From a virus, in IMG/VR virus record IMGVR_UViG_3300027972_000014, positions 1-55,182 of that record: a stretch of 55,182 nt of DNA; one strand, written 5' to 3'. Made by a program: the position numbers and the translations under genes. Below the pieces are notes generated by a model. The model was given only the letters and a program-made list of their open reading frames with translations, searched no databases and was not told where the DNA came from. Shown here in pieces: positions 6,587 to 39,540 of this stretch (positions within the stretch are counted from its first letter, which is position 1; each line of letters starts with the position of its first letter).

Positions 6587-6604
6587 TGTCATTCTCCTTT
6601 TTTG

Positions 6605-7026: not shown

Positions 7027-7175
7027 CTTAATTGTAGCTCAGCAACATTGCGGAAATTTACGACGGGCTACCATCAAAAGCCTGCGCCGTTCGTGACAGT
7101 GAATTATACTAAAATTCGCGGGCTGCCGTACAGGCAACTTGACGGCGGCGCGGGCAATATCAAAGGAGTAAGGCA

Positions 7176-8792: not shown

Positions 8793-8852
8793 CTAAAATT
8801 ACCGGGTCTGTGGGTGTGTGTGCGCCCACACACAAATGCTTTTGGAGGAATT

Positions 8853-9548: not shown

Positions 9549-9551
9549 TCA

Positions 9552-9842: not shown

Positions 9843-9850
9843 AATAACCT

Positions 9851-10603
9851 CTATGATAATAGATAAGCGCAAAAATATGAGTGAAACGAGGTAGCTGCAC
9901 CATAGACATCTATCGTATCTCCGGCCTCACCTGCTATATCTATGTCTCCGGTCGCCGTGTCTAATATGTCCATATCTGCAATAGTCGAACAGTGAAAACC
10001 GCAATACCCCGCACTTTGTACCGCTCCAACTGCGCGATATGAGCCATAGTGAGGCCGGTTTGATGTCATTACTCTGCACCAGCCTAGCGTAGCTGCCGCA
10101 GTTATTCCGCTACATAATATCGTCAACTCAAATAAATATTTTGCAGTAACAGGAGCGGTAAATGTGCCGTTTGCTGTATTAAAATTTCCATTTCTATCGT
10201 ATATTTCTGTGCCGAAAACTACAGGATATGTAGTTCCAGCGCCGGTAACATTTGTAATCGTACTGGAAACGTGAGCCATAAATAGCGGTTGCACCGCTGC
10301 ACTTAAATAGCCGCTGGCGTCGGCGGATAGAGCCGGGTCTGGCGCACCGTCAGAGGCGACGAGTTTTGATACCTCAACAGCATCTTGCGCCAGTGTTCCT
10401 CCTTCGGCGGCGCTGGCGTGTGAATGAACGGCATCAGTCCATATATTATCCCAATCTAATTGCCCTCCCTCTGCATCACTTGAATGAGCATGGACAGCAT
10501 CCGTCCAGGTTTTATCCCAATCCAAACCAGTAACCTCACCGGTTTCGAGAGCCTCAACCCGTCGCTTTAAATCCTCTATCAGTCTGATAATTTCATCGCT
10601 CAT
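9851..10603 (-). CDS. Tail-tip protein with C1q-like domain
   Basis: The 250-aa protein has a short coiled coil (residues 1-20), two near-identical 21-residue repeats (LDWDKTWTDAVHAHSS and LDWDNIWTDAVHSHAS, about 27-68), then a C-terminal domain with the C1q/TNF signature NFNTANGTFTAPVTAKYLFE and aromatic strands to the end. C1q-like trimers are common at phage fibre tips and bind surface ligands. Its place at the end of the tail genes fits a receptor-binding role. Confidence 0.75.
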   Translation of the reverse strand: MSDEIIRLIEDLKRRVEALETGEVTGLDWDKTWTDAVHAHSSDAEGGQLDWDNIWTDAVHSHASAAEGGTLAQDAVEVSKLVASDGAPDPALSADASGYLSAAVQPLFMAHVSSTITNVTGAGTTYPVVFGTEIYDRNGNFNTANGTFTAPVTAKYLFELTILCSGITAAATLGWCRVMTSNRPHYGSYRAVGAVQSAGYCGFHCSTIADMDILDTATGDIDIAGEAGDTIDVYGAATSFHSYFCAYLLS

Positions 10604-12114: not shown

Positions 12115-15100
12115 TTAATTGACATACGCCGTTACAGCCGTACCACTGGTATCAAAACCTATAACGGTTATCGTTGGCGCGAATAGCATCGCCTCAACCG
12201 CCGCCGTCCCCGGCAAGTCTACGTCTATCGGCTTAAAATTGGTACCGTTCCAAACTGCTACCTTGTCCGGCAATGTTACCCCGCCCGCCGTCGTGAACGC
12301 GCCTCCAATGTAGACCAGCCCGGCGGCGTCGGTTTTTATAACGTAGCCCTGGTTATTGAGGCCGGTCGAAAGAGGTTGAAATTGTGTCCCGTTCCAGGCC
12401 GCTACGTAGTTAACGCCAGTTACCGTCCCGGCGGTGGTAAATGTGCCGGTCAGATAGACGCAGCCATTAGGCGTTATATCAATGCTGTTCACGTAACCGT
12501 TTGTGCCGTTCTCCAAAGCGGAAAAGGTGTCTGTCGCCGGGTCGTATAGGGCGACATAGTCATAGTCAGTTGCGCCGATGTGCCGGAATGAGCCGCCAAT
12601 GTAGAGTTTTCCGCTGGCGTCAAATTTGAGCGTATTTACCGCGCCGTCCGGCTCCGCTGATACCGCTTTCCAGGTTGCCGCCGAAATGTCGTAGTAGGCC
12701 AGGTTTTGAGTATTGGCAACGGAGTTGGTATCTAAGAATAGACCTCCGATATAAAGGTCTCCGTTAGGCGCAATCGCTGTCGCCAGCACCGTCCCGTTAA
12801 TGTCGCCGATGGAAGTCCACACGCTTCCTGATATGTCCCAAACGGCCATTCCTTGCGTAGCCGCCACGCCGCCCATCCCGGTGAAATTGCCCCCGGCTAC
12901 AATGTCCCCGTTGGCAAGTTCGGCCAGGGCATAAACCACGCCGTCATCCGCGCCAGTTCCGAGAGCATTCCAGGTTAAAAGTGTTGTATCCCAGTAGGAT
13001 ATTTTATCGGTATCGGCAACGGAGTCGGTATCAGAAAATCCACCTCCTACATAAATTTTGCTATCAATAGATTGAATAATATCTTTAGATGTTATCGCTA
13101 TCGTTTGCCATCCGTATCCATTCCAACGCGCAAATCGGGCCGTATTTGCCACTCCCCCCACGGATGTATGATTCCCGACGATATACAAATATCCATTTGG
13201 AGCTACTAAAAATTGATAGATATTACCACCTGCGCCGCCAGTACCCATTGCAAAAAAACCACTACTAAAATCATATCCGGCTACATATCCAGTATTTGCC
13301 AATCCGCCTGCCGTTGTAAATTTACCACACAAGTATAATTTATCCCCGTAAATAACAATGTCATAAACATCATCATCTGTTCCAGTTCCTATTGTGTTAA
13401 ATGAGTTCAATGTAATATCATACTCAACTATATAATTATGGGCCACTCCGTTAACTGTAGTAAATTCTCCCCCAAAATATACTTTTCCATTATAATATCT
13501 GGTAGCCCATACCGTTGCATCTGCCCCAGAACCAACAGCAGAAAATGTAGCCGTGCCAATATTATATTTTGCTACTCTATCTATAGCACTTCCACCAATC
13601 GTTGTAAACATTCCACCAACATATAAAATATTATTAATTGGGTCAATATCTATAGACGATGTTCTTGAATTTGCCCCGGTAGAAAGCGCACTCCAAGTAG
13701 TTGTAGCTATATGATACCGGGCGATATTATCAGAATTTGCATTGCCCTCCAGATTTGTAAAAGTTCCCACAATATACAAATAACCATTATAAATAAGCAT
13801 ATCATCTACAATTGTTACTACTGTTGTGGTTATTTGTGTCCAATTTACTCCATCCCAATAACTAACCCCCCAACCTCCACCGGCATAGATGTAACCCGTA
13901 TTCATATCCATAACCATAGAAGTAGGAGCTGCGGCTAAATTAGTAACATCTACCCAATCGGCTCCTGTCCAATAGGCTATTTCTTTCATTGCGACATTAC
14001 CACCAATGCTTGTAAAACTTCCTCCTATCCATACATTCCCAACTAAATCCATAGAAATACATCCAGAGAAATTATTGTCTGGTAAATCTGGCACAGTAAT
14101 CGTTAACCCATCTTCCGCCTTTGACCAGTTACCCTCACTGTCTTTCTGGATAATGTAATTAACCCCGGCAATACTTAATGTAGCCGTCGCTGCCAATGCC
14201 GCGTTTCCTCCTCCTCCTCCGTTCTCCCCTGCTGAACCGGCTGTGCCACTCGCACCCGTCCCTATACCATTGGCTATATTCGTCGCCGTAAATATACGCA
14301 AAAACTCACGCCAATACGGGTCAGTTGCCAACAGCCGCAATTGCACCACCTCGTTGGGACAGCCCAGGCAATTTCCTTCAAAACCGGCCTGATAATAAAA
14401 AGCCGCGTCAAGCATCTTGCCGCTGCCACTATAGCGAATATGGACAGGCTGTTGTGTGGCAAAACGATTAGGATTAAGTAGTCGCAAAATAGCCGACCTG
14501 GTAGCATGGTAGTCTATCAAGTCTGGTTCGTCTATTACCCCGTCCACTTGCATTGTGCGTTCACGGATAGCCTGCTTGCGGAACACCGCGCCGTCCTGAA
14601 CTGCCGGGCGAAGTGAGGTAATCTCAACCGCGCTCATTCCCGCCCCGGCTACCGGCCCGACCTGATAGCCATAATCGTACAGGCTTACCGGACGACCTGC
14701 TCCACTAAATTGCGCCTGGCGTGAACTGGTCGAGGTATGCTTTCCAGCCGTCCACAAACACCCATCAAGGTCTCCGTCGCAGTAGTCTGTTGCATATTGT
14801 TTGGCTTCAACCTGGAAGCCGTCAAGATAAAAAGCTGCAACGCTGGCATTACTATATTTGTATACTCTAACCTGGATAGCCGTATTCGCCCCGGTCTGAG
14901 CCGTGACTGCATATCTCGCCCAACCACCATCAGAGGTAAATGTTACCGGCGCTCCTAAAATAGTTGCGGCCACGCTATCATATATGTCGAAGTTGTAAGA
15001 GACACCGTCCACGCCCTTGATGTCAAATGAAAAAGTGTACCACGTTGCCGCAGTCAATGTTAGCGAGTATTTAGCTCCGTCGCTTAGAGCCGCCGACGGG

Positions 15101-15435
15101 GTGACGCGAAGCGAATAATTACCGCGCCACTGGTAAATCGCAGAGCGGGCAATTGCCGCAGCGCCAACCGCGCTGTAACCCGTCGTGGCATTTTCTACAC
15201 TTGGATTTGTTACGAGGTTGGTAGTAGTTTCAGGTACAACTATCCACCAAAGGTCGGTATTTTCTGCCATTGGTTTTGTTTCCTCTCTAGCCTGCACAAT
15301 AGGCAGGTAATTATTTTGCGTTGGTATTTCGTGCGTTGGCGTCCCGCAAGAAAGCGGGGGAGGGGGTTGGAATACGTTGGGGTAATAGGAGAAAATAATC
15401 AGAGCCAGAAATAGAGATGCTATTCTTTTGTACAT
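12115..15435 (-). CDS. Large distal-tail protein with carbohydrate-binding-like and beta-propeller domains
   Basis: The 1106-aa frame starts with a signal-like stretch (MYKRIASLFLALIIFSYYP), then from MAENTDLWW (alternative start 15270, AGAGAGG upstream) a CBM4/9-like jelly-roll (about 70-245), a Dit-like N-terminal region (about 250-400; VQLRLLATDPYWREFL), a glycine-rich hinge, and 13 repeats of about 48 residues with the core LYIGGSFTTxGGxxxxxVAxW, which should fold as one or two propellers. The usual Dit C-terminal domain is encoded separately at 11755-12105. Virion proteins do not need a signal peptide, so the true start is uncertain. It probably decorates the tail tip and binds glycans. 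Confidence 0.75.
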   Translation of the reverse strand: MYKRIASLFLALIIFSYYPNVFQPPPPLSCGTPTHEIPTQNNYLPIVQAREETKPMAENTDLWWIVVPETTTNLVTNPSVENATTGYSAVGAAAIARSAIYQWRGNYSLRVTPSAALSDGAKYSLTLTAATWYTFSFDIKGVDGVSYNFDIYDSVAATILGAPVTFTSDGGWARYAVTAQTGANTAIQVRVYKYSNASVAAFYLDGFQVEAKQYATDYCDGDLDGCLWTAGKHTSTSSRQAQFSGAGRPVSLYDYGYQVGPVAGAGMSAVEITSLRPAVQDGAVFRKQAIRERTMQVDGVIDEPDLIDYHATRSAILRLLNPNRFATQQPVHIRYSGSGKMLDAAFYYQAGFEGNCLGCPNEVVQLRLLATDPYWREFLRIFTATNIANGIGTGASGTAGSAGENGGGGGNAALAATATLSIAGVNYIIQKDSEGNWSKAEDGLTITVPDLPDNNFSGCISMDLVGNVWIGGSFTSIGGNVAMKEIAYWTGADWVDVTNLAAAPTSMVMDMNTGYIYAGGGWGVSYWDGVNWTQITTTVVTIVDDMLIYNGYLYIVGTFTNLEGNANSDNIARYHIATTTWSALSTGANSRTSSIDIDPINNILYVGGMFTTIGGSAIDRVAKYNIGTATFSAVGSGADATVWATRYYNGKVYFGGEFTTVNGVAHNYIVEYDITLNSFNTIGTGTDDDVYDIVIYGDKLYLCGKFTTAGGLANTGYVAGYDFSSGFFAMGTGGAGGNIYQFLVAPNGYLYIVGNHTSVGGVANTARFARWNGYGWQTIAITSKDIIQSIDSKIYVGGGFSDTDSVADTDKISYWDTTLLTWNALGTGADDGVVYALAELANGDIVAGGNFTGMGGVAATQGMAVWDISGSVWTSIGDINGTVLATAIAPNGDLYIGGLFLDTNSVANTQNLAYYDISAATWKAVSAEPDGAVNTLKFDASGKLYIGGSFRHIGATDYDYVALYDPATDTFSALENGTNGYVNSIDITPNGCVYLTGTFTTAGTVTGVNYVAAWNGTQFQPLSTGLNNQGYVIKTDAAGLVYIGGAFTTAGGVTLPDKVAVWNGTNFKPIDVDLPGTAAVEAMLFAPTITVIGFDTSGTAVTAYVN

Positions 15436-20800: not shown

Positions 20801-20829
20801 ATTATACCATATTTGACGACAATTGACTA
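20801..20829 (-). promoter_or_regulatory. Extended -10 promoter within the head-tail genes
   Basis: ATGGTATAAT (minus strand) has a full -10 with the TG extension; the -35 TAGTCA at 17 bp matches only 4 of 6. It reads through the structured leader 20705-20795. Confidence 0.5.
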
Positions 20830-21501
20830 TCCGATAGGCGGGCGAATATATCGTCCCAATTTCAGCAAAAAAACCGCATCTGGGTCAATCTCTTTTGTAT
20901 ACATAAGTTGACCGGTATCTGAACTTGCCAAAGTGTCAGACATCCCACTTTCGAAACGCTTGTAAAGTCTTACTGCCTGAATTAGAGTCGCCTCTTTTAC
21001 CGGCAACGGTGCTGTTACCGAATACCCCCACTTCGCCGTAACTTGCACCGTTGGTACTCCCCGCGAAGTCACTTTGGCGTCAATGTCGGGCGGGAATCCT
21101 TGCAGATTACTATACTGCCCGCCGGTGAAAATGCTATAATTCCCCGTAGGATTAACAATGAGCATCGTCTTGGGCGGGCTGTTAAAGTTCGGGTTTCTTG
21201 GGTCTCCCCGCGCCGTGATAAAATCACCCGCAACCCACGCCGTGTAAGTTGTATCGGTTACGCTTTCTTTAACCGCCACTGCTGATACCGATACGCATTC
21301 ATCAATCCATAGATATGACAAGCCACTCCCAGAATATTCCCGCGCCGTACCCACTGCCAACGCCTCAAAACCATCAGGCCGGTTACAATAATTGTTAATG
21401 GCAATCTCAGAGGCGGCAATAAGCGCGGTTAAAACCGCGTCCTGTCCCGCTCCTGTTTTGTTTAGCCTTGCCTTGAGTTCAGAAATTGTAGCGTAGCTCA
21501 T
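20827..21501 (-). CDS. Head-tail connector (gp6/adaptor-like)
   Basis: The 224-aa protein opens with helices typical of HK97 gp6/SPP1 gp15 adaptors (MSYATISELKARLNKTGAGQDAVLTALIAASEIAINNYCNRP), has a central strand region and returns to helices (EATLIQAVRLYKRFESGMSD) at the end. It forms the first ring below the portal. Position after the decoration-like genes fits. Confidence 0.75.
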   Translation of the reverse strand: MSYATISELKARLNKTGAGQDAVLTALIAASEIAINNYCNRPDGFEALAVGTAREYSGSGLSYLWIDECVSVSAVAVKESVTDTTYTAWVAGDFITARGDPRNPNFNSPPKTMLIVNPTGNYSIFTGGQYSNLQGFPPDIDAKVTSRGVPTVQVTAKWGYSVTAPLPVKEATLIQAVRLYKRFESGMSDTLASSDTGQLMYTKEIDPDAVFLLKLGRYIRPPIG

Positions 21502-21508: not shown

Positions 21509-22066
21509 CTACCCAGAATAGCAATGAATACCTATGACAAAGCTAATTGTCCCGGCATTGGTAGTGCAACAACACCGCGCCCAATATTTGGCTGTAGAGG
21601 CGACGCGCTCGGATTGTACCAGGTGCGGCGCTTGTCGCAGGTTCGCAGGTATTATCGCTGCTGTCATCCCGGTTAAAACCTGCGCCCCGCTTTCGCCTTT
21701 CCCAAACTGAATATAATAAAGCCCACCGGCTACACTGGCTTGCGTTACCAAAATTTGATGCGGGTCATAGTATGCCCCATAAACCACACCCGCCCCATCG
21801 TCTAACTGCAACCAATTTCCGTAAGCCCCGGCATTGCCTGCCGTTAGTTGCCAGGCATTAAGACCATTTTCAATCATAAAGGTATCCTGGTCTTTGCCGT
21901 ACCAACGCCCCACACTATGCAAATGGACTTCTATTTCGTTGACATCATAACTTAAACTGTCAGTAGCGCCCGCCAGACCGTCAATAGCCTCGTGGTCAAT
22001 TGCCGCCGTGTAGCGCAAAATCGTTGCCAGGGTAGAGCTATCATCAATCGGATTATCAAGAGGCAT
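21509..22066 (-). CDS. Hypothetical virion-associated protein
   Basis: The start at 22066 overlaps the upstream stop and has GAGGGGG upstream. The 185-aa product is strand-rich with GNWLQLDDGAGVVYGAYYDP and ends with a cysteine cluster (YWARCCCTTN). Its place among head genes suggests a minor head or decoration protein; no family is recognised. Confidence 0.55.
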   Translation of the reverse strand: MPLDNPIDDSSTLATILRYTAAIDHEAIDGLAGATDSLSYDVNEIEVHLHSVGRWYGKDQDTFMIENGLNAWQLTAGNAGAYGNWLQLDDGAGVVYGAYYDPHQILVTQASVAGGLYYIQFGKGESGAQVLTGMTAAIIPANLRQAPHLVQSERVASTAKYWARCCCTTNAGTISFVIGIHCYSG

Positions 22067-22067
22067 T

Positions 22068-22472
22068 TTACACCCCCTCGTTAATGAGTAATCTGCAATT
22101 GGCAACGGTACTAATGGCATAAATTGCGCCGGTGTAAAGGTTATTTACACTGAGGTACATTTCATAACTGCCGCCGTTGGCATTCAGGCGAACACCCCTA
22201 TTCAACCCCGCCGCTCCGCCCAGTGATAAGTAAATCACCGTACCGCTATCATTGATAAAATTGCAATATTTGCGGGATGTATTGGGCGGTAGGACATTGA
22301 TACTAAGTAACCCCACGTCTACTATTGTTTGATTAATCGTTACCGCACTACCCACCACAACCGCACCACCGATAGCAACTACCTCAGCGTGGGTAGTGTC
22401 CCCCATATCCTTATATCTGGTTTGGGTTTCGAGCGGTATCTGTTCCCCTGATGCTAGAATCAAATCAGCCAT
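22068..22472 (-). CDS. Hypothetical phage structural protein
   Basis: The 134-aa protein carries the pattern SRKYCNFINDSGTVIYLSLGG and GVRLNANGGSYEMYLS, which I associate with small beta-sandwich proteins frequent in phage head regions. It precedes 21509-22066 with overlapping stop and start and follows the acyltransferase gene by four bases. The exact role is unknown. Confidence 0.6.
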   Translation of the reverse strand: MADLILASGEQIPLETQTRYKDMGDTTHAEVVAIGGAVVVGSAVTINQTIVDVGLLSINVLPPNTSRKYCNFINDSGTVIYLSLGGAAGLNRGVRLNANGGSYEMYLSVNNLYTGAIYAISTVANCRLLINEGV

Positions 22473-22476
22473 AATT

Positions 22477-22908
22477 TCACCTCAATATTAACCATCTATG
22501 CTTATCTACATATTGCCATTTTCCGTCTACCAACCGGGCTACAACTTGCGCCGGGTTTCCTTCGACCATAGTTCCCGGCGCAACCTCACATGATTTTACC
22601 ACTGCCCCGGCTGCGACAATTGCATCTTCACCAATGATACAATTATAGAGTAGCGCGAAAGACCCAATCCAGGCCCTCTCTTTAATAATTACTTTTTTAA
22701 GGACAGTATCCCCAACCTTGCCCTCGCTTATGTCGTGTGAGGCCGTCAACACTCTTACCCCGTAGCCCCAAATAACATTGGCGGCAATTTCTACCTCACC
22801 CCGATTGTCCATAAAACAACCACGCCGGATAAAAAAGCCTTTATCCTGTTTGATAGTATCAGCCCATTGCTCATTCAGGATAACCCCCAAATTCATAGCA
22901 TTGGTCAT
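22477..22908 (-). CDS. Left-handed beta-helix acyltransferase
   Basis: The 143-aa protein has hexapeptide repeats (IAANVIWGYGVRV, VIIKERAWIGSFALLYNCIIGEDAIVAAGAVV) and the ASHDI loop of the maltose/galactoside O-acetyltransferase group, with the catalytic-type histidine in that loop. It should acetylate a sugar hydroxyl. It is the last gene of the sugar/methyl-transfer cassette that ends before the head-tail genes. Confidence 0.8.
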   Translation of the reverse strand: MTNAMNLGVILNEQWADTIKQDKGFFIRRGCFMDNRGEVEIAANVIWGYGVRVLTASHDISEGKVGDTVLKKVIIKERAWIGSFALLYNCIIGEDAIVAAGAVVKSCEVAPGTMVEGNPAQVVARLVDGKWQYVDKHRWLILR

Positions 22909-23516
22909 TTTGCTATTTCACCTGCACGCCGTACCAACCCGGCTATACCGGAACTTGTATCGGTGTCCATTATCATCACGTCAAGTTCACGACCCAACGA
23001 GGCAGCCAGTTTGTTAACTGCCTCATAAATGGGGATGTAGTAAATCGGGCCGTAGTCGTGAAATAGAATTAGCCCGCCATCTTTGAGCCGGTTAAACCAG
23101 GGCAAGTCACGGACTATCAGCCCGTGATTGCCGTCTACAAAAATGAAGTCGAAGTTCTGACCGTAGTATATATCATGGTAATCCCAAGAGCACATTGCGA
23201 TAACAGAAACATTAGGCCAGGGCGCGAGATTCTGTTGAGCTAATTCATACTCACCCTTGCGCGGGTTGAGCGTTGTTATCCGCGCCAATGGAGCGCCTTG
23301 AGCAATCATCGAGGCCGAGTAGCCTACCGCAGTCCCTAACTCCAAAATATTAGCATCTGGCCTATTGTATTTGCTTGCCAGTCCATACAGAGCCATTGCC
23401 TGGTAATGTTTCTGTCCGCTTTTGATTGATTGGCTTTTATCAAGAGCCGTCTTTGCTCCTGGAAACGAGGCGTCAAGCTGTTGGGTGATATTTGCTATCG
23501 TATCGTGAATTATCAT
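22905..23516 (-). CDS. SAM-dependent methyltransferase (class I)
   Basis: The 203-aa protein has motif I ILELGTAVGYSAS, an acidic motif II (ITTLNPRKGE) and FDFIFVDGNHG, typical of Methyltransferase-24-like enzymes that methylate sugars or small molecules. It is paralogous to 24899-25507 (shared QAMxLxxLAxxYNRxDANILE). It overlaps the acyltransferase by 4 bp. Confidence 0.8.
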   Translation of the reverse strand: MIIHDTIANITQQLDASFPGAKTALDKSQSIKSGQKHYQAMALYGLASKYNRPDANILELGTAVGYSASMIAQGAPLARITTLNPRKGEYELAQQNLAPWPNVSVIAMCSWDYHDIYYGQNFDFIFVDGNHGLIVRDLPWFNRLKDGGLILFHDYGPIYYIPIYEAVNKLAASLGRELDVMIMDTDTSSGIAGLVRRAGEIAK

Positions 23517-24070
23517 AATGGTTTCCTGTATGCCTTTAATGCTCCTACGGTTTCCAATTCAATCCATTGGTTTTTGGCCTGCCATTTGTCTACTACTTTT
23601 TTAACATCAATGCCGGTTTTAATTATGCCATAATCGTGAATGGCTAAAATTCCACCCGGCATTATTTTATCAGGCCATACCGCCATATCTTTTGTTATTG
23701 CTGCTTTGCTATGGTCACTGTCAAGAAAACAAAATGCTACTTTGTTTGGGATATAGGTCGGCGCTTCCCAACTATTCATTTCCAGGGATAGAATTTCTAT
23801 ACCAAATTTATTCATCGTCGCCCAAAATCGAGCGCGGTTTTTTGAAGCCCAATTGTCTACGGCGTAGAATACCCCGCGCCCCCAACGAGCCTGCACCCAG
23901 GTCACAACCGAGCCGCCTTCATATACGCCACATTCTACCGCAGCGCCATTTGGGGCAAGTCTTGCCAGGTCGAAAAGATAATACAATTGAGTGGCGGTTT
24001 TAGTTTTATGGTCATAGAGCATAGAATTGGCCTCTATGCCTGCTCTTACCGCTTTATCCCTACCATCCAT
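23513..24070 (-). CDS. SAM-dependent methyltransferase (class I, TylF/Methyltransf_24-like)
   Basis: In this 185-aa protein motif I reads AAVECGVYEGGSVVTWV, followed by FYAVDNW and VAFCFLDSDHS, then ILAIHDYG. The pattern belongs to class I methyltransferases often found in polysaccharide and macrolide pathways. It overlaps both neighbours by 4-11 bp, indicating one transcript with the other transferases. Confidence 0.75.
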   Translation of the reverse strand: MDGRDKAVRAGIEANSMLYDHKTKTATQLYYLFDLARLAPNGAAVECGVYEGGSVVTWVQARWGRGVFYAVDNWASKNRARFWATMNKFGIEILSLEMNSWEAPTYIPNKVAFCFLDSDHSKAAITKDMAVWPDKIMPGGILAIHDYGIIKTGIDVKKVVDKWQAKNQWIELETVGALKAYRKPL

Positions 24071-24902
24071 CTGTTACCCCTTGTAATAACTGATACCCCA
24101 TAAAATCAGGCGTTGATTTTTTGGCAATCTCTTGTCCCCAATAGTCGAGCGGTTCATTGCCAAGAGTATACCGCCGCTTCATCCGGTCAATCAGAGCCGC
24201 TTTGTAGTTCGGCCAATTCCAGGTTTCATTACCAGGATAATGGAAACGCTTTTGCATCCCCTCAAATTCCTCTGGTAACAGGTTATACGAGGCGTCAACT
24301 AAACAAAGGTTATTAACATTTGGCGGAATTTCTGCCTGGGCAATATGCCGCGCTTTCATATCGGGATAAGAGGCCAGGATAACGGCTTCACTTAACCCGG
24401 TTGGGTTATACAATGCCTCGCGCCTGACAGGTGGGCCGTGTAACCTGTCGTGTACCTGTCCCATTGCCCAGCCATAGCCGGTTGTCGCCCCGTTTTGCTT
24501 AAATTCTAAACAATACTCACGCAATGTTTCTATATTTCGACGTGGCACATACCAATTGCTATGCGTGCTCATAATAACTTTATGACCGTCTTTGGTTGCC
24601 GCCCACCTGCCAATAGCCAGGTTACGCATGTGGAATTTGGTGAACCCGGACATTGTATTGCCGTCCATTATTGTCAAGGCTTCATCGCCCTCGCCTGGTT
24701 TATGATGCCACGTTGACGGGTCAGAGATAAGGGTAATGTTGCTATATTTATTTAGCAACTTATCAATGCCGGTTGAGTCGGCGGTTGACTGGATAAGATA
24801 AACCCGGTCGGCAAATTCGGCTTGACTGGCGATACACTCGTAAGCAGTCCACTGATAACCCCACTTATGAAGCGGGCCGCAGGCGCAAGAAATAGCTATC
24901 AT
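24060..24902 (-). CDS. Glycosyltransferase-like protein (GT-A fold likely)
   Basis: The 280-aa protein opens MIAISCACGPLHKWGYQWTA with a strand then a helix, has YLIQSTADST and HMRNLAIGRWAA, and ends with long helices. The mixed pattern resembles glycosyltransferases of phage and polysaccharide clusters, but no clear DxD is evident (MSTHSNW stands where one might expect it). The context of transferases supports a sugar-related role. Moderate certainty only. Confidence 0.5.
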   Translation of the reverse strand: MIAISCACGPLHKWGYQWTAYECIASQAEFADRVYLIQSTADSTGIDKLLNKYSNITLISDPSTWHHKPGEGDEALTIMDGNTMSGFTKFHMRNLAIGRWAATKDGHKVIMSTHSNWYVPRRNIETLREYCLEFKQNGATTGYGWAMGQVHDRLHGPPVRREALYNPTGLSEAVILASYPDMKARHIAQAEIPPNVNNLCLVDASYNLLPEEFEGMQKRFHYPGNETWNWPNYKAALIDRMKRRYTLGNEPLDYWGQEIAKKSTPDFMGYQLLQGVTDGW

Positions 24903-25507
24903 AATACCTCATCTCTTTGGCGATAAATACCGGCCATACCTATCAAGTTGGTATCTATTATCTGTATATCTAATGGCCTATTTATTAAGGCAGAAATTTT
25001 GTTTATCGTATTATAAACCGGCGGGCAGGCGATTGAACTGTAATCGTGGAAAAGGATTAGACCGCCAATTTTAAGCCAATTAAACCAGGGCAGGTCGCGC
25101 CCTACTCGCTTGTGGTCTCCGTCTACAAAAATCATATCAAGTTCCGGGCCAGTATATTCCGCTAAATATTTCCAGGAATAAACCTTAAACACTTTCACAT
25201 TTTTATACTGTGCCAAATTTCGGCATGATAAATCGAACTCGGCAGGCTTGGGTTCAAGTGTGACTATTTTAGCCAACGGCGCAGCCTGAGCCATAATAGA
25301 GGCCGAAAAGCCCAACGCTGTGCCTATTTCCAAAATATTAGCATCAGACCGGTTGTACTGTTGCGCCAGAACAAATAGGGACATCGCCTGGTAAGGCAGA
25401 ATTTGCGCCTTGATTTCCCGGCTGTTGTTCAGGGCTACTGCCACCTGGGGGAACGTCGTCTCTAGCTCTTTGGCTATCTCGTTCCCGCTCTTGTTTTGCT
25501 CGTTCAC
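24899..25507 (-). CDS. SAM-dependent methyltransferase (paralog of 22905-23516)
   Basis: The 202-aa protein starts with GTG (GGAG upstream) inside the 3' end of the previous gene. Motif I is ILEIGTALGFSAS; LDMIFVDGDH and LILFHDYSS follow. It is clearly a duplicate of 22905-23516. The first 164 bases are also read in another frame as the tail of the gene 25344-25994. Confidence 0.8.
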   Translation of the reverse strand: MNEQNKSGNEIAKELETTFPQVAVALNNSREIKAQILPYQAMSLFVLAQQYNRSDANILEIGTALGFSASIMAQAAPLAKIVTLEPKPAEFDLSCRNLAQYKNVKVFKVYSWKYLAEYTGPELDMIFVDGDHKRVGRDLPWFNWLKIGGLILFHDYSSIACPPVYNTINKISALINRPLDIQIIDTNLIGMAGIYRQRDEVL

Positions 25508-25994
25508 GAATTTGCTCCACTTCTAAATTTGATAATTTTTTTAGTGTTGCCACTACCGATGACTTACAATTATTCAGGTCACACCTGATAATGCTCCATT
25601 TTTTATCGGTATAAAAAAAGTGCTTATTTTCTTTCTCTAAAGCGGGGTCTAAAATATCAAATACCCCACGCCCAACCACATAACGATGGGTAGGGTCATT
25701 GTATGACGTTTCGCTGTCCCAGAATGGCAACTTAATTCCCAAATAACCACCCGGCTTGAGGATACGCCAGCACTCATTAAGTGCTTCTAGTAAAGTCAAG
25801 TCAAGATGTTCTAAAACCGCCCTGGCGCTGATTGTCTCAAAACTCTCATTCTCCCAGGGCCAGGGTAATACATTCAAGTCCCAGGCAATATCAATAGTTG
25901 GACTATGATAATACAAGTCGTGATTGACTGCATTGGCCGCGCAATGAGTGCCGGCGCCTAAATTAAGAATTGCCCTGGTTTGTTCTTCTATCAT
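25344..25994 (-). CDS. SAM-dependent methyltransferase (type 11) with overprinted tail
   Basis: The 216-aa protein has a short motif I (ILNLGAGTH), the sequence DLNVLPWPWENESFETISA and WRILKPGGYLGIKLPF, characteristic of type-11 methyltransferases in glycan clusters. The last 50 or so residues (REDxxRARDDVPPGGSS-like, proline and glutamine rich) overlap the next gene in a different frame and lack conserved features. It is paralogous to 25991-26440. Confidence 0.75.
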   Translation of the reverse strand: MIEEQTRAILNLGAGTHCAANAVNHDLYYHSPTIDIAWDLNVLPWPWENESFETISARAVLEHLDLTLLEALNECWRILKPGGYLGIKLPFWDSETSYNDPTHRYVVGRGVFDILDPALEKENKHFFYTDKKWSIIRCDLNNCKSSVVATLKKLSNLEVEQIRERAKQERERDSQRARDDVPPGGSSPEQQPGNQGANSALPGDVPICSGATVQPV

Positions 25995-26440
25995 TTTATC
26001 GGCCTCAATACCGCTTTCAGGTTACGCTCTTTAATAACACCACTGCTGACTATTGTCCATTTATACTTCGTGTAGTACCCGTTAGTTTGTCCATATCTGG
26101 TTGCCGGGTCTACAAAGTCAATCGCTTTTTCTGACCAGTACCATCTATGAGTAGGGTCATCGTGAATATTGATACTGGTAAATACCGGATACTTTAGTAC
26201 CAGAGACCCCCCTGGCTTGATTATTCGCCAGCACTCGTTTAGTGTTTCTATGAGGTTTAGTTTCAGGTGTTCGGCAACGCTAATTAACTGTACCTCATCA
26301 AAAGAATTATCAGGCCAGGGCCAGGGTAAAATATTCAGGTCGTGGGTTACGTCTATTTCTGGGCGGTGCTTGGTCAGGTCGTGGTTAATCACGTCGCCTG
26401 TCATCACCCTATCACCACACCCCAGGTTAAGGATGTGCAT
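25991..26440 (-). CDS. SAM-dependent methyltransferase (type 11)
   Basis: The 149-aa protein has ILNLGCGDRVM (motif I), DLNILPWPWPDNSFDEVQ and WRIIKPGGSLVLKYP, the same pattern as 25344-25994, so the pair arose by duplication. It lacks the C-terminal extension. It overlaps its neighbours by 4 and 14 bp. Confidence 0.8.
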   Translation of the reverse strand: MHILNLGCGDRVMTGDVINHDLTKHRPEIDVTHDLNILPWPWPDNSFDEVQLISVAEHLKLNLIETLNECWRIIKPGGSLVLKYPVFTSINIHDDPTHRWYWSEKAIDFVDPATRYGQTNGYYTKYKWTIVSSGVIKERNLKAVLRPIK

Positions 26441-28070
26441 TGGCTGCCTCCCATTTCTGCACCGCCGCCCACGCCTCTTTACTATCCAACCGCGCCGGGC
26501 CAGGTAAGGCGTGTTTGTCCCACCGCCGCGCTGTCATATTATGGTGAATGATAGCCAACGGGCCAGGCGGCAATGGGTAACGGTCGCTGGCATTGAATTG
26601 GTTCATCAGGACAAAAGTCCTCATCTGGTTAGTGTAAAACGAGCGTATCAAAGCACCCTGGTCGCGCTTGGCCCATTTCTGGTATTCCTCATTCCAACCT
26701 GCAAAAAATCTGGCGGTCGCATCGCAACGGCGAAAAGCAAACACCCCGCCGCCGTATTGCATCACCTGGTTAGTGCCGACCATGTCCTCGGTCTGGTCAC
26801 ATTCACGGTCATTGTCACCCCGGCGCATTTTGGCTAAATAGTGCCGTTCATCTTGGTCTTTGCAAATAATAAATTCCCACCCATCAGCCAAGAATTGAAA
26901 AACACTATCAAGCGGTTCGGTTGGTTCGGTATCAGCATCCAGATAGAGAACATAACGCCATTCTTTAGGAGCGAGTTCGTCTACTGCCAACTTTGCCAAC
27001 CGTCCCCCAATGTCACGGTCTGATTGCTTGATAAAAATATCCTCACCGGCGTTAATAGGTTCTGCGCCCACGAAGGCAATAGGAACATCTGGGTTGAATT
27101 GCTTAAAAGCCGGTATAAGACGCCTGGCGCAATCTCTGGATGGAGTACCAAAAGCCACACAATATGCGCCGCTATTGCCGCGCCAGCCAGGTAAGTTTTC
27201 CTTGACTGCCGGTTGTGTCCCCCATAAAAACTTCTCAAATGCTCTGATGTGGTCTAGTTTCCAGTTCTCGCGACTATACCCCTCTACTGCTGCCCTCAAC
27301 TGTTCCAGGTTAGCCGGTTTATCATTCAAGGCATATTCAAATACTTTAAGTAAGTCCTGATAGTCGCCCGCCTTAAAGCGGTAGATACCGTGTATATCCG
27401 GTAGGTCGTCCAGCATCCCCACGTTGCGCGGGATAATAACAGGTATGCCACAACTGAGCACCTCCAACGGGGGCATTGGTACGCCTTCAATACGGCTGGC
27501 GCAGATGAACAGGTCGAGTGATTGGTAAAAGTTTGGTAAGTCCTTCCAGGCATATCCTTTTGTAGGTACAGGCCAATCGCGCCCGCTCGCCCGCCAGTCA
27601 CAGGTACGCCCTGCAACAGATTGAACCAATTGCGTTATCAGGTCTTCGCCCTTGCGGTTATCGCTGTAAGAATAACCACTTAGACCAACCACACGCCCGC
27701 GTTTCTTTTTAACCGGCGTGAATACACTACGCTCAACCGCCGGTCTGACCATCTCTACCGGGCCAAATGGGGTCAGGTGAGGCTTGTATATTTGCGCTGT
27801 TAAGGTACGCAAGCCCACCCTTTGGGCTACACCATCCCAAAGGTTTGTTTTGTTTTTGTCGTTGGTATCACGGTGCGTAAACCACGCCGCTGTTAGCGTA
27901 TCTTTCCAGGTTCGTTTTTGTAATTCCAGGTAAGGGAAGAAATAGTTGAGTTTAGCCGTTACGCTTGGCACTTCGTCAATAGTCCACTTAGTTTCTTCGG
28001 CTAGGGTACGAGCCAATCTAGGCAAAACACGGTCGGCGTTAAGACGACCACAAACGATGTGTATATTCAC
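26427..28070 (-). CDS. Bifunctional glycosyltransferase (GT-B plus GT-A domains)
   Basis: The 547-aa protein fuses two transferases. Residues about 1-290 are GT4-like (GT-B), with YSDNRKGEDLITQL and the nucleotide-binding ICASRIEGVPMPPLEVLSCG (near 210-230). Residues about 300-540 are GT-A/GT8-like with VLYLDADTEP carrying a DxD metal site and YGGGVFAFRR. It overlaps the methyltransferase downstream and abuts the GT8-like gene upstream. It could build a disaccharide on host or virion glycans. Confidence 0.8.
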   Translation of the reverse strand: MNIHIVCGRLNADRVLPRLARTLAEETKWTIDEVPSVTAKLNYFFPYLELQKRTWKDTLTAAWFTHRDTNDKNKTNLWDGVAQRVGLRTLTAQIYKPHLTPFGPVEMVRPAVERSVFTPVKKKRGRVVGLSGYSYSDNRKGEDLITQLVQSVAGRTCDWRASGRDWPVPTKGYAWKDLPNFYQSLDLFICASRIEGVPMPPLEVLSCGIPVIIPRNVGMLDDLPDIHGIYRFKAGDYQDLLKVFEYALNDKPANLEQLRAAVEGYSRENWKLDHIRAFEKFLWGTQPAVKENLPGWRGNSGAYCVAFGTPSRDCARRLIPAFKQFNPDVPIAFVGAEPINAGEDIFIKQSDRDIGGRLAKLAVDELAPKEWRYVLYLDADTEPTEPLDSVFQFLADGWEFIICKDQDERHYLAKMRRGDNDRECDQTEDMVGTNQVMQYGGGVFAFRRCDATARFFAGWNEEYQKWAKRDQGALIRSFYTNQMRTFVLMNQFNASDRYPLPPGPLAIIHHNMTARRWDKHALPGPARLDSKEAWAAVQKWEAANAHP

Positions 28071-28672
28071 TATTTAGCCCTTCCAAAAAGGTGTTCTATC
28101 AATTCTCCGCCATTCCAACAGCGGCCTAATAAGCCAATCCTGACAGGTTCTCTATGTAACGCCCTGAGCAATGCTGCCTGGTCTTGTCCGTGCCAGCGTT
28201 GCCATTCTTCGCGCCAGGCAACAAATAGGTTGAGACATCTCAACCGGTTAAATGCCATCACCCCGGCTTGTAACTGTAATGGATAAGGGTTTCCCAGTTC
28301 TATCAAAGTTTCCCCGCGTTCCTCATTCCCTACGTGGCTCATCAGGTCACGCCCCTGGTTGACACTATAAGTTAATACCAGGTCGAATGTATTAAGCATT
28401 TTAACGAGCGGGTTAAGGTCGGTATTGATACGGGTATCAGCATCCAAATAAATAACCTTGTCCCAATCCACTATCCGGTCTATGTTCAGCTTTGCCCACC
28501 TCGCCCCCGCGCCCGGCTCATCAAATTTGATAAGTTGCGCGTCGCCTATCGGCTTCTCCCCAACTGTACAGACCGGCAAATCATTATACTTTTTCAGCGA
28601 AGCAATGCTGGCAGTTGCCTCGTCTCTGGCATTGTCTCCATAAGCCACATAGACAACCCCTACGCTTTCCAT
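28070..28672 (-). CDS. GT8-like glycosyltransferase
   Basis: The 200-aa protein has a GT-A core with VIYLDADTRIN (DxD) and LQLQAGVMAFNR, matching the second half of the bifunctional enzyme at 26427-28070, so one arose from the other. It starts the glycan cassette and overlaps the gene at 28660-29268 by 13 bp. Confidence 0.8.
   Translation of the reverse strand: MESVGVVYVAYGDNARDEATASIASLKKYNDLPVCTVGEKPIGDAQLIKFDEPGAGARWAKLNIDRIVDWDKVIYLDADTRINTDLNPLVKMLNTFDLVLTYSVNQGRDLMSHVGNEERGETLIELGNPYPLQLQAGVMAFNRLRCLNLFVAWREEWQRWHGQDQAALLRALHREPVRIGLLGRCWNGGELIEHLFGRAK
28229..28244. repeat. Dyad motif copy 3
   Basis: GTTGAGACATCTCAAC inside the GT8-like gene. On the minus strand it is read as LRCLN, a different reading frame from copies 1, 2 and 4. 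Confidence 0.8.
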
Positions 28673-29268
28673 ATTGACGGCAACGCCAGAACATAAGGCT
28701 TAACTTGATAAAGCACTCTCAAAAATGCCAGCCGTTCGTCGCCCTTTTCTTCTCGCCATAACCTAAATAATTCCTCTGTTGCCGTACACTGGCGAGCAAA
28801 GACCAGCCTTGTATCATAGACAGGCACTCTCATTTCGTGAATGATAGCCTGGGTATACTGTCGTTCTTTCTCTGTGCCGATGTCACGCGCCAGTAGGTTG
28901 TAGTCGGTAATCGGGACGGCAATTTCCCAACGGTCGAGCAGGTGTAATCCTATCGGTATCAGGTTCTTATTTAGCGGAAAGTCAGGAGACCATATAACGG
29001 TCTTTTCAAACTTGACTTCTAGCCCGCCCTCAATTACTTCCAACCCATCATATTCAAATTTAACATTCTTGCGTAGGACAATTCCAGCATCGGGGGGGAT
29101 AATATCTCGCCTGGCGACGATATTCAATATTTCGCATTGGCCGGTTGCCAACCAATTGCGGGCGTCGTGTTTGCCAACTTCGATAAAGTCACCGGCATAA
29201 CGCATTATCGTCTTGCCGTTCTCTTCGACTATCTGAGATGATAGCAGTTTGACCCAAACCTTACTCAT
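28660..29268 (-). CDS. Hypothetical protein between capsid and glycan genes
   Basis: The 202-aa protein starts MSKVWVKLLSSQIVEENGKT and has a small N-terminal beta domain (AGDFIEVGKHDARNWLATGQCEI) like a family of short phage proteins found after capsid genes; the C-terminal half (RDIGTEKERQYTQAIIHEMRVPVYDTRL) is helical and resembles none I know. It may bridge virion and glycan functions. A G-run/C-run hairpin follows the upstream stop near 29280-29300. Confidence 0.55.
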   Translation of the reverse strand: MSKVWVKLLSSQIVEENGKTIMRYAGDFIEVGKHDARNWLATGQCEILNIVARRDIIPPDAGIVLRKNVKFEYDGLEVIEGGLEVKFEKTVIWSPDFPLNKNLIPIGLHLLDRWEIAVPITDYNLLARDIGTEKERQYTQAIIHEMRVPVYDTRLVFARQCTATEELFRLWREEKGDERLAFLRVLYQVKPYVLALPSIWKA

Positions 29269-29323: not shown

Positions 29324-29761
29324 TCAGTCTACAATTTCAGTCCAGTTCGTGGTGGGAACAGCAGCGAAGCGAGGCTCAAGGCCAAACAGGGTATAAGCCA
29401 GTTCGACACCTGAAACCGTGATGACCATTCGCACCTGGACACAATCAAAGTCATTGTTGACATCAAGCTCTTCGGTGCGTAATTCGATACAACACAGGTC
29501 ATCCATATCACCCGGTTGGGTGAATTGCGTCAATTGCTTCCCGGTAATAGCTTTTGCTCCTGTGCCATTGGTATCCTGTGCCTGGCGCAATGATACGGTA
29601 CAGGTGGCCCCAGGGCCAGTATCGCCCAGGTTAAAAACCAAAGCCGCCCGGTGATAAGTAGACAACGACACCCAGGCGCTATCAATTGTCCCCGGTACTT
29701 GCTGGTCGGCAAATTCGGTGAGTAACGGATAGGCTAATTCAGTAAAACGTGCAGTATACAT
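29324..29761 (-). CDS. Hypothetical capsid-associated protein
   Basis: The 145-aa strand-rich protein (STYHRAALVFNLGDTGPGATCTVSLRQA, VQVRMVITVSGVELAY) follows the capsid gene, the usual place for a decoration protein. It has a repeated pattern of strands and no helices. Decoration is inferred from position. Confidence 0.6.
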   Translation of the reverse strand: MYTARFTELAYPLLTEFADQQVPGTIDSAWVSLSTYHRAALVFNLGDTGPGATCTVSLRQAQDTNGTGAKAITGKQLTQFTQPGDMDDLCCIELRTEELDVNNDFDCVQVRMVITVSGVELAYTLFGLEPRFAAVPTTNWTEIVD

Positions 29762-32128: not shown

Positions 32129-32289
32129 CTTCTCCCCCAATTTGGCGAGCCTGCCAATTTGTGTTATAATTACTCAGGGATAGGATTGACCTAGCTAGTC
32201 AACCCGAAAAGTCCGTCACCGATAATGGGCCTTCCCAATTTCACTAAAAAATAATGTCGGTCGCTATCCTTTATCGGGAGGATTTTTCT

Positions 32290-32988
32290 ATGTCCAAAAA
32301 TCATATACCAAATAGAACTTGTATCAGATGTGGTAAACAATTCTTTACTATAAAAAGCAATCCTAAAAAATATTGTTCTTTTGAATGCTATGCTCAATAT
32401 AGACGCGAAGTGGAAAATACGAAATATAACCCAAGTTTCAAAGGGGTTGAATGTATATGTCAAAAATGCGGTAAAATATTTGTTATTAGTCAATGCGAAT
32501 TTGCAGCCGGATATGGAAAATATTGCTCTATGGCTTGCCGTAGACTTCCAAGAGAAGAATACATTTGTAAACTTTGTGGCAAGAAATTCTATCGGTTGCC
32601 ATGCCAAGTTGCCACAGAAGGATATGGTCAATTTTGCTCTATATCTTGTCGCCAAAAATATACTTGTATGACCGCTTTTCGTAGGAAACCGTCCTCTATC
32701 GAACAACTTCTTATAGATTCTCTTGACGCCAAAAATATTAACTACGAATTTCAGTACCCATTTATTAATTGTGTTCTTGATTTCGCTTTTCCGGCCCACA
32801 AATTGGCAGTCGAGGCCGATGGTACATATTGGCATAGCCTTGATAATGTCAAAGAAAAAGATAAGCGTAAAGATAAAAAGTTGATAGAGAATGGTTGGAC
32901 TATCCTTCATTTTACTGAGGATGAAATTCACGCTTCCCCATCGGTTTGTGTTGAAAAAATCGTTGCTCATCTAAATATCCAGAAATAA
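32290..32988 (+). CDS. Free-standing homing endonuclease (EDxHD/Vsr-like) with zinc ribbons
   Basis: The start at 32290 has GGGAGG upstream (alternative 32254). The 232-aa protein has three Cys-rich ribbons (TCIRCGKQF...YCSFECY; ICQKCGK...YCSMAC; ICKLCGKK...FCSISC) and a C-terminal PD-(D/E)XK-type domain: SSIEQLLIDSL, CVLDFAFPAHKLAVEADGTYWH, GWTILHFTEDEI. This is the layout of phage endonucleases of the Vsr/EDxHD class. It is on the opposite strand in the head operon, which marks it as a mobile intruder. Confidence 0.75.
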   Translation: MSKNHIPNRTCIRCGKQFFTIKSNPKKYCSFECYAQYRREVENTKYNPSFKGVECICQKCGKIFVISQCEFAAGYGKYCSMACRRLPREEYICKLCGKKFYRLPCQVATEGYGQFCSISCRQKYTCMTAFRRKPSSIEQLLIDSLDAKNINYEFQYPFINCVLDFAFPAHKLAVEADGTYWHSLDNVKEKDKRKDKKLIENGWTILHFTEDEIHASPSVCVEKIVAHLNIQK

Positions 32989-37928: not shown

Positions 37929-38118
37929 CCACATTCCTACCCGGTTGCGTAACTGTCTCCGCTGCCTCTATCGCCTGCGCTACGACAGCCCTTAATGCGC
38001 AGGCTATTTCCGATAGCGCGTCTCGCTGCGCGTCGGTGAGCGAACGCAGAAACGCCGCCGGGTCGGTCGCGGCGAGGTACTGCTGTAAAATGGTTTGGCT
38101 TGCGGTTGGGTCAGGCAT
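37924..38118 (-). CDS. Small helical protein, paralog of 40284-40490
   Basis: The start at 38118 has GGAG seven bases upstream. The 64-aa protein contains ILQQYLAATDPAAFLRSLTDAQ, closely matching LLQQYLAASDRPAFLCTLTD of the gene at 40284-40490, so the two are duplicates. Both sit next to enzyme genes. Function unknown. Confidence 0.65.
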   Translation of the reverse strand: MPDPTASQTILQQYLAATDPAAFLRSLTDAQRDALSEIACALRAVVAQAIEAAETVTQPGRNVV

Positions 38119-39328
38119 TGGGACGCTCCAAGAGGACGGGCTGAATTTGAGTGTGGTCAAGGAAACGTTGCAAGCACACGCTAACGTAGGGTGGATGTAT
38201 TTCTATGCCGCGACAACGGCGGTTAAGGTTGTGGCAAGCGATAAGGGTTGTGCCACTGCCTAGAAATGGGTCAAAAATAACATTATTTTTAACCAAATTT
38301 ATTGCATCCTCAATAATACCTATAGGCTTTTGCGTTGGGTGTGGTTGTCTTTTTTCGCCAGCCTCTTTTATGTATCCGGCCCAAACGTGCCTACTTAATC
38401 TGTAACCGTTAAAGGAATTTGAAGCAGCAACCTCTACAGGGTTTCCTAGTCCATTCTCTCCACCGTCACCGCGTTTATCCCAAACTAATAAGCCGGTATA
38501 TTTTTCATCTCTAGCGATATACGGAAAACCAAACACAATCCACTCGTTATATTCATACACCCAAGATAAATCTAAATCCCCGCTATCGTTAGCAAGTTTA
38601 TCATCACTCAAGCAAGCTGGCTTTCCACGTTGCACATTCAACGTGGAAAGCCAGCTTGTGTCAACGTCAATTCCATAAGGCGGGTCTGTAACTATCGCCG
38701 CCTTCTCCCCCGCCATCACCCTTTCAACCGTTGCCCTATCCGTGCAATCGCCGCAGATAATCCGGTGCTCGCCACAGCCCCATAAGTCACCTAAATGCAC
38801 TTTCCAAACCTCTTGCAATTCCTCAGCGCGTGATATTTGCGGCTCTGTATCCTTGCCCGCGTCTCCCCCCTCCGCCGCCAGCATATCCCCCAGGGCGAAG
38901 GTGTCCTGCTGCCATTCTTTGAGCAAATCCTCATCGAAGCCAAAGCCGGTTAATGTGTCGGCGTCCAGCCCCCAATTCGCCAACTCGCTAAAGTCCCACG
39001 AACCGCCGTCAAGGTTCGCCTTGATATTAGCTGCAAGGCATTGCTCCGGCGTCCAGCGCACCGCCCGGTAACTGAATTGCTCCCCACGCCATTCTATGTA
39101 GCCCCGCGCAACCGTGCCGGTTCGCGTTGGTGTGTCAAACTGTTCGGTAATAACGGGTTGAATTTTGTCCAAGTCTAGCACCCGACAGCGTTGGTTGCCG
39201 CTTATCACCTGGTCGCTATTCAGGTCGTGGACAATGCCGCCCAGGTCGCCAAAATATTCCAGGTCGGTTGACAACTGCTCGAATTGTTTCTTGGATATTT
39301 TGCGCGGGTTATGGTCAAAAAACTTCAT
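38111..39328 (-). CDS. DNA methyltransferase (N4/N6 type) with ParB-like domain
   Basis: The 405-aa protein (start 39328, AAGGAAAC upstream) has a ParB/sulfiredoxin-like N-terminal domain (residues 1-60; HNPRKISKKQ, VISGNQRCRV), a helical linker, and a D21-class methyltransferase with ICGDCTDRAT, TDPPYGID (215-221) and FDPFLGSGTT near the end. It should methylate adenine or cytosine amino groups in phage DNA, perhaps against restriction. A perfect 20-bp inverted repeat (38613-38658) is embedded in its coding sequence. Confidence 0.88.
   Translation of the reverse strand: MKFFDHNPRKISKKQFEQLSTDLEYFGDLGGIVHDLNSDQVISGNQRCRVLDLDKIQPVITEQFDTPTRTGTVARGYIEWRGEQFSYRAVRWTPEQCLAANIKANLDGGSWDFSELANWGLDADTLTGFGFDEDLLKEWQQDTFALGDMLAAEGGDAGKDTEPQISRAEELQEVWKVHLGDLWGCGEHRIICGDCTDRATVERVMAGEKAAIVTDPPYGIDVDTSWLSTLNVQRGKPACLSDDKLANDSGDLDLSWVYEYNEWIVFGFPYIARDEKYTGLLVWDKRGDGGENGLGNPVEVAASNSFNGYRLSRHVWAGYIKEAGEKRQPHPTQKPIGIIEDAINLVKNNVIFDPFLGSGTTLIACHNLNRRCRGIEIHPPYVSVCLQRFLDHTQIQPVLLERPNA
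38613..38658. repeat. Perfect 20-bp inverted repeat inside the methyltransferase gene
   Basis: Bases 38613-38632 are the exact complement of 38639-38658, with a 6-base loop. It lies just after the DPPYGID motif and codes for DTSWLSTLNVQRGKPACLS. So long a perfect hairpin inside coding DNA is unusual; see findings. Confidence 0.9.
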
Positions 39329-39540
39329 TTTGTTTCCTTGCACGTTTTAACTTTGGTATCCTTTAGCGGTAAACAGGAAATATCCTCCGTAGCCGAAATG
39401 AAACATAGCACGCCAATCTTATCGTTGCACCACACGTCAAGTTCTGCTTTTGGAGCAGGCGCAGCGCCAACGTTGTAAGCCATAACCAATATCAGGATAA
39501 AAAAGATTACAGCGGGTAAAGCAGGTAAAATGTATCTCAT
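39325..39540 (-). CDS. Small secreted or membrane-anchored cysteine-rich protein
   Basis: The 71-aa product begins with a signal-like segment (MRYILPALPAVIFFILILVM, cleavage plausible after GAA) followed by a short four-cysteine domain (VWCNDKIGVLCF...DISCLPL...VKTCKE). It could be a spanin-like or periplasmic/exported accessory near the lysis genes, or an exclusion factor. It overlaps the methyltransferase start by 4 bp. Confidence 0.55.
   Translation of the reverse strand: MRYILPALPAVIFFILILVMAYNVGAAPAPKAELDVWCNDKIGVLCFISATEDISCLPLKDTKVKTCKETK

Follow-up and report, generated by a model that had tools for sequence, protein, structure and literature searches.

An uncultivated tailed virus of IMG/VR, record IMGVR_UViG_3300027972_000014 (55,182 nucleotides [nt], referred to here as the window and analyzed over its full length), carries a cassette of predicted sugar- and methyl-transfer genes at positions 22477 to 28672 of the minus strand. 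The proteins of most concern are FUS, in which a GT-B and a GT-A glycosyltransferase (GT) domain are joined, the GT8-like enzyme G8, and the GT-A-like protein X202, which together form the core of the locus. This core holds a near-fixed place behind the gene for the major capsid protein (MCP) in more than 100 dereplicated environmental viral loci. Sugar-attaching genes are kept there by nearly all relatives checked, a pattern suggestive of viruses that coat their own particles with sugar and that form a large, unstudied group. It appears probable (roughly 0.7) that the cassette encodes a machine for virion glycosylation that is produced along with the head genes and works in the host cytoplasm. 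If so, a large group of uncultivated viruses would as a rule have sugar-coated particles, which would bear on the ways in which virions escape receptors, proteases, particles, or antibodies, and the loci would be a source of new protein-glycosylation enzymes.

Core genes and their place behind the capsid gene

Relatives of FUS were collected using a profile built from three FUS sequences, which identified 67 IMG/VR loci and four contigs from metagenome-assembled genomes (MAGs); a scan of viral contigs with a single FUS sequence confirmed no relative. The census comprised 73 loci, and the 71 of them with a FUS-labelled open reading frame (ORF; all but L035 and L071) formed 60 clusters at 95% identity. 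Cluster representatives with at least 2.5 kb of sequence upstream of FUS were taken as informative (n = 48). In 45 of these the MCP gene was located on the same strand upstream of FUS, at a distance of ≤151 nt in 25. The exceptions were L075, where MCP adjoins FUS with an overlap larger than the counting script allowed; L057, where no MCP was seen at the locus; and L072 (positions 7311 to 11616 of a contig carrying the bin label Thermoprotei archaeon), where FUS and X202 lie upstream of the portal and MCP genes. Two arrangements could be distinguished, MCP-D145-X202-G8-FUS in the lineage of the window, in which the small protein D145 is kept behind MCP, and MCP-FUS with X202 further on in a second lineage. 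Two consecutive FUS-labelled ORFs, GT-B then GT-A, were present in 26 loci (some being fragments or frameshifts) and overlapped by 4 nt in seven; the halves of FUS therefore also exist as a gene pair.

The same association was identified from the capsid side. Profiles of the MCPs of both lineages matched at least 577 and at least 594 relatives, of which the best 80 each were used, and 141 loci were newly fetched, some on contigs already in the set. Where at least 2.5 kb was available behind MCP, FUS, G8, or X202 was found within 3.5 kb in 43 of 46 loci (window's lineage) and 40 of 41 loci (second lineage). After clustering at 95% identity, 66 of 70 MCP clusters, none of them found earlier by the FUS scan, carried one of these genes at that distance; since the capsid profiles came from loci with FUS and the best 80 relatives per profile were used, these figures describe the neighborhood of this clade rather than all distant relatives. 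Behind the MCP genes of L107, L116, L153, L154, L156, L171, L189, and L193, no FUS-labelled ORF was present and two G8-labelled proteins were found, some of 398 to 488 amino acids (aa) and often around a methyltransferase. Such combinations are further versions of the core. The arrangement is more than chance, because it recurs in many divergent viruses.

Among 50,697 phage records, 301 had an MCP match (each at <60% identity), but none was matched by FUS, G8, or X202 in tblastn, and no DNA-level relatives of the cassette block were identified in phage records. No published description of the arrangement was found in the literature as judged by titles and abstract openings, most subscription papers lying outside this coverage. 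Of 396 genomes sampled from the class to which G002 belongs (an Anaerolineae MAG, itself counted), 4 contained FUS. The FUS-bearing MAG contigs carried the taxon labels Anaerolineae, Anaerolineales, Zixibacteria, and Thermoprotei; as viral contigs may have been drawn into these bins, the labels do not assign a host.

FUS and G8 look active, as predicted from the conservation of their catalytic residues. The N-terminal half of FUS is a GT4-type domain (PF00534, 38.0 bits; cutoff, 26.4), in which K140, E195, and E203 were kept in 101/101 FUS proteins, the two glutamates forming the E-x7-E motif that is catalytic in GT4-type GT-B enzymes. D378 and D380, the DxD metal-binding motif of the GT-A half, were each conserved in 96/101 proteins, and the DxD of G8 was conserved at D77 in 80/80 and at D79 in 76/80. 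A preliminary description of this DNA had listed a GT-A/GT-B fusion and a GT8-like enzyme with duplicated GT-A domains. The fusion and the duplication are real, the GT-A part of FUS (from residue 301) sharing 30% identity with G8 (E value, 3e-23), but the domain order is the reverse, with GT-B first and GT-A second. G8 is indeed GT8-like, but its score against PF01501 (19.7 bits) lies below the cutoff of 24.3, and FUS has no PF01501 row. In comparisons with the PDB, the G8 profile matched a GT8 structure (E value, 0.0061) and chain residues 378 to 450 of WbbM (PDB 6u4b; E value, 9.6e-4), and a weak match to GT-B enzymes was obtained for the N-terminal half of FUS (5n7z; E value, 7.8e-4).

X202 had no Pfam or PHROG match. 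An AlphaFold2 (AF2) model generated from a 38-row alignment reached a mean pLDDT of 94.8, and residues 55 to 202 resembled GT-A enzymes and nucleotidyltransferases (best Z, 7.8; root mean square deviation [rmsd], 3.1 over 129 residues). Profile comparison related this GT-A-like part to G8 (hhalign, 97%), with the DxD of G8 aligned to S-P-D of X202. Because aspartate at both aligned places was found in 0/125 X202 proteins, we infer that X202 is an inactive GT-A pseudoenzyme; some genuine GT-A enzymes also have no DxD. Outside the motif, W114, P197, and W200 were conserved in 123 to 124 of the 125 proteins and P119 in 107. In the second lineage, X202 has a C-terminal tail with kinship to the beginning of the small gene that follows it before the connector genes (hhalign, 98%; six such genes aligned), which would fit a possible shared docking element. 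The small gene following X202 in L028 (locus region 6422 to 7436) gave a helix-hairpin-helix match. The N-terminal beta domain that X202 has in the window's lineage was considered as an equivalent of this tail, but the comparison gave no support (hhalign, 1.3%).

The gene set in the slot behind FUS differs from locus to locus. When ten chosen slot proteins from relatives were scanned against Pfam, one had no match and the other nine corresponded to two sulfotransferases (one below cutoff), a UDP-sugar dehydrogenase, an NAD-dependent epimerase, a GT2 enzyme, a cupin with a polysaccharide-synthesis match, two transketolase halves, and a radical SAM protein. Methyltransferases of the Methyltransf_24 and Methyltransf_11 families recur across many loci.

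Across 42 viruses, identity between the lineages was ∼42% for FUS and ∼19% for MCP. The correlation of FUS and MCP identities (Mantel r of 0.84; ∼0.5 inside each lineage) is largely an effect of physical linkage and no proof of function. The two genes of the window nonetheless have different nearest relatives. In the MCP tree the window grouped with L013/L015 (support of 93 in a 43-row tree but only 77 in a 39-row tree), and in the FUS tree with L004/L005/L084 (support of 100). Forcing the FUS grouping on the MCP data was rejected by the approximately unbiased (AU) test (p = 4e-35), as was, for the FUS data, the MCP grouping (p = 1e-5); both groupings were picked after the trees were seen. The FUS of the window shares 66% identity with that of L004 and 44 to 45% with those of L013/L015; for MCP the values are 43% and 59 to 60%, respectively. 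As the trees conflict and the gene-by-gene identities point the same way as each tree, the cassette seems to have been swapped between capsid backgrounds while holding its place.

Proposed function and its alternatives

In the scheme that we propose, G8 and both the GT-A and GT4-type halves of FUS would move sugars from nucleotide-sugar donors to a virion protein, which could be MCP, D145, or a neighboring virion protein, and sequential transfer would produce a short glycan. X202 would bind without catalyzing, so that the enzymes become docked to the head or to the acceptor, and the methyltransferases and the acyltransferase could cap the glycan. Virion modification is favored over lysogenic conversion or DNA modification by the place behind MCP and by the cytosol-like character of the proteins; across 13 of them (the cassette, X202, D145, and two small proteins), no 19-residue mean hydropathy exceeded 1.7, the highest being 1.68. 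It is favored further by gene content in 20 records including the window. GtrA (PF04138) was found in 0/20 records and in 7/14 control genomes, the thymidylate-synthase family (PF00303) in 0/20 records and in 9/14 control genomes, and a tyrosine integrase in 1/20 records, the window not among them. A serine recombinase was not found in the window.

The preliminary description had offered decoration of virions or remodeling of the host glycan, and the position of the GT genes behind MCP in both search directions, together with the lack of a membrane-like segment in the 13 proteins, favors the former. Enzymes that act during infection on a host surface glycan or on its precursor in the cytoplasm, for instance to prevent superinfection or to release progeny from receptors, would account for the nearest PDB sequence matches, which are lipopolysaccharide and polysaccharide GTs, and bacterial polysaccharide loci also contain GT4, GT8-like, O-methyl-, and acyltransferases. 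The position right behind MCP, shared by both lineages, the absence of membrane-like segments from the 13 proteins, and the counts for GtrA and the tyrosine integrase make such remodeling unlikely. Slightly less probable again is that only X202, G8, and FUS act on the virion and that the genes behind them are mixed cargo not acting on the same glycan. The slot is indeed highly variable and includes unexpected genes, among them the radical SAM protein and the transketolase halves, but six of the nine Pfam-matched slot proteins (the two sulfotransferases, the UDP-sugar dehydrogenase, the epimerase, the cupin, and the GT2 enzyme) fit sugar activation, transfer, or capping, and the two methyltransferase families recur in many loci. 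Least credible, and very improbable, is a role of the GTs and methyltransferases in making hypermodified bases of viral DNA rather than in modifying protein. The cassette sits in the head operon away from replication genes, Pfam assigns its methyltransferases to Methyltransf_24 and Methyltransf_11, and the thymidylate-synthase family, one of several routes to hypermodified bases, was absent from the 20 records. Some PHROG names for the methyltransferases nevertheless read "DNA methyltransferase," and phage GTs that glycosylate DNA are known, according to PMC12619734.

Several points weigh against virion glycosylation. Gene position shows co-expression and not substrate, and the proposal is drawn from gene content and sequence comparison. 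Four of the 70 MCP clusters (L140, L149, L150, and L177) carried no core genes, and where at least 5.5 kb was available behind MCP, a FUS-labelled ORF was present in only 20 of 29 loci of the window's lineage and 22 of 25 of the second. Dagobah and TMCBR2, the closest isolate MCP relatives examined, had no annotated GT in the stretch read and no profile match in the forward frames. Profiles of FUS, G8, and X202 did not match Wildflower gp34-36 or Che8 gp108-110, discussed below, at HMMER sensitivity. For X202, the best Foldseek E value was 1.3e-3, with none at 0.001 or better, and the Z-scores of the model, all below 8, are not decisive alone.

A wider version of the virion-glycosylation proposal is tentative. 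In a large uncultivated group of tailed viruses, virion glycosylation might be a standing part of head assembly, in which a catalytically dead GT-A-like partner brings to the capsid a fused or paired GT-B/GT-A enzyme produced right after the capsid protein, and the exchangeable genes further back (methyl-, sulfo-, and acyltransferases and sugar-nucleotide enzymes) make up a swappable "capsid serotype" locus, like the O-antigen loci of bacteria. The cassette is compact and lends itself to expression, the probable acceptor is the product of a neighboring gene, and X202 is a candidate GT pseudoenzyme docking factor.

Layout of the locus

The head genes of the window are on the minus strand in an HK97-like order of terminase, portal, protease, and MCP, then head-tail adaptor and neck protein. 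Nine same-strand ORFs occupy 22477 to 28672, and the preliminary description correctly placed them between capsid-associated genes (protease, MCP, and the phrog_28483 protein D145) and connector genes (head-tail adaptor and neck protein). The block is better drawn to 29268, which adds X202, a conserved core member that had been missed (Table 1).

Table 1. Genes from MCP to the head-tail adaptor in order of transcription
Feature	Coordinates	Strand	Basis or remark
MCP, major capsid protein, 438 aa	29795..31111	-	phrog_10 major head protein, E value 5e-46; anchor of the locus and candidate acceptor
D145	29324..29761	-	phrog_28483 (unknown function), E value 2.2e-18; 16-row alignment; candidate virion protein or acceptor
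X202, N-terminal beta domain and GT-A-like domain without DxD	28660..29268	-	Model and profile comparison
G8, GT8-like glycosyltransferase, 200 aa	28070..28672	-	PF01501 below cutoff; PDB profile matches
FUS, GT4-type GT-B domain fused to GT8-like GT-A domain, 547 aa	26427..28070	-	PF00534
Methyltransf_11 methyltransferase, 149 aa	25991..26440	-	PF08241 above cutoff
Methyltransf_11 methyltransferase, 216-aa ORF	25344..25994	-	PF08241 above cutoff; paralogue of 25991..26440
Methyltransf_24 methyltransferase, 202 aa	24899..25507	-	PF13578 above cutoff
280-aa protein, fold not recognized	24060..24902	-	Relatives in L093 and L146 only
Methyltransf_24 methyltransferase, 185 aa	23513..24070	-	PF13578 above cutoff
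Methyltransf_24 methyltransferase, 203 aa	22905..23516	-	PF13578 above cutoff; paralogue of 24899..25507
Hexapeptide-repeat acyltransferase, 143 aa	22477..22908	-	PF00132, 30.7 bits (cutoff, 27); probably an acetyltransferase
134-aa protein behind the cassette	22068..22472	-	Relatives in the same place in L004 and L005; possible virion protein
203-aa protein behind the cassette	21509..22120	-	By position; possible virion protein
Head-tail adaptor, closes the slot	20827..21501	-	phrog_442, E value 5.2e-10

The one acetyltransferase and five methyltransferases previously described were recovered, three of the latter as PF13578 and two as PF08241, and the two methyltransferase pairs are genuine duplicates (47% identity over 129 columns for Methyltransf_11 and 51% over 192 columns for Methyltransf_24). 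All genes had been said to overlap by a few bases; this holds for seven of the eight junctions (1 to 14 nt), but the eighth, between 24899-25507 and 25344-25994, spans 164 nt. The second Methyltransf_11 ORF is 216 aa long here and 187 to 194 aa in its relatives in L004, L005, and L006. As it enters the next gene by 164 nt and the relatives are shorter, its C terminus may be altered or reflect a sequence error.

The further GT-like protein proposed at 24060-24902 was not confirmed. It had no Pfam or PHROG match, its closest PDB sequence was at an E value of only 0.87, its patterns matched no viral contig, and comparison with a small GT2 alignment gave no usable hhalign match; the AF2 model (mean pLDDT, 47.5) was unusable. 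D145 was without a Pfam match and its best match among PDB sequences had an E value of only 0.14. No PHROG or Pfam match was found for either of the small proteins behind the cassette.

Elsewhere in the window, the first 148 bases recur at the end (1 to 148 and 55035 to 55182, one mismatch) as a direct repeat, and the genome is therefore probably complete. An HNH/homing-endonuclease-like gene lies on the opposite strand between the portal and protease genes (32254 to 32988, +; phrog_559; E value, 1.8e-15). A tail protein of 1,106 aa (12115 to 15435, -) matches Sipho_tail weakly and includes a long stretch resembling a beta-propeller (Rax2 C-terminal propeller; E value, 2.3e-24), and at 38111 to 39343 (-) a ParB-like domain is joined to a DNA methyltransferase (phrog_498 and phrog_620).

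Comparison with known systems

Among bacterial enzymes, FUS resembles WbbM (PDB 6u4b), which is likewise a bifunctional two-domain GT and part of which is matched by the G8 profile. WbbM differs in being a bacterial polysaccharide enzyme, and the matches of the N-terminal half of FUS, which were weak, were to other GT-B enzymes.

The chlorovirus PBCV-1 protein A64R combines GT-A and O-methyltransferase domains and has been tied to the capsid glycan, according to PMC4691112. A virus-encoded GT and O-methyltransferase linked to a capsid glycan is also what is proposed for the cassette. The A64R GT structure (2p72; Z, 7.7; rmsd, 2.9 over 120 residues) was one of the top matches to X202, but a Z below 8 is no evidence of kinship. 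PBCV-1 is moreover a eukaryotic virus with another capsid, and X202 is without the DxD.

Virion glycosylation in tailed phages was found in print for mycobacteriophages, to whose enzymes those described here are not detectably homologous; Freeman et al. 2023 is reportedly experimental work on phage virion glycosylation. Che8, Corndog, and Myrna are listed as having glycosylated proteins in PMC12363180. In Corndog, O-methyltransferase and GT genes (gp35-38) lie between portal and protease; PMC4351075 proposes capsid modification and gives the enzymes as detected in infected cells and not in virions. Wildflower, which like Corndog belongs to cluster O, is annotated in the order portal, O-methyltransferase, three GTs, protease, and MCP (block gp33-36), which fits the Corndog description. 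Both phages thus have an O-methyltransferase and several GTs inside the head operon, as in the window, and the Wildflower O-methyltransferase (gp33) belongs to PF13578/TylF, in common with three methyltransferases of the window. The cluster O block, however, is located between portal and protease, whereas the cassette is behind MCP, and the Wildflower GTs are GT25 and GT2-like or unassigned, the GT-B/GT-A fusion and X202 of the window both being absent there. In Che8, gp108-110 are GTs of the GT2 and GT25 families, unlike FUS and G8, and gp108 contains a Methyltransf_24/TylF domain (PF13578), as do three methyltransferases of the window. These genes lie at 56171 to 58673 of 59472, far from the MCP gene (5051 to 5872), which the adaptor gene directly follows. 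By this comparison, the cassette would most likely work like the GT/O-methyltransferase loci of Corndog and Che8, with enzymes from outside their GT families.

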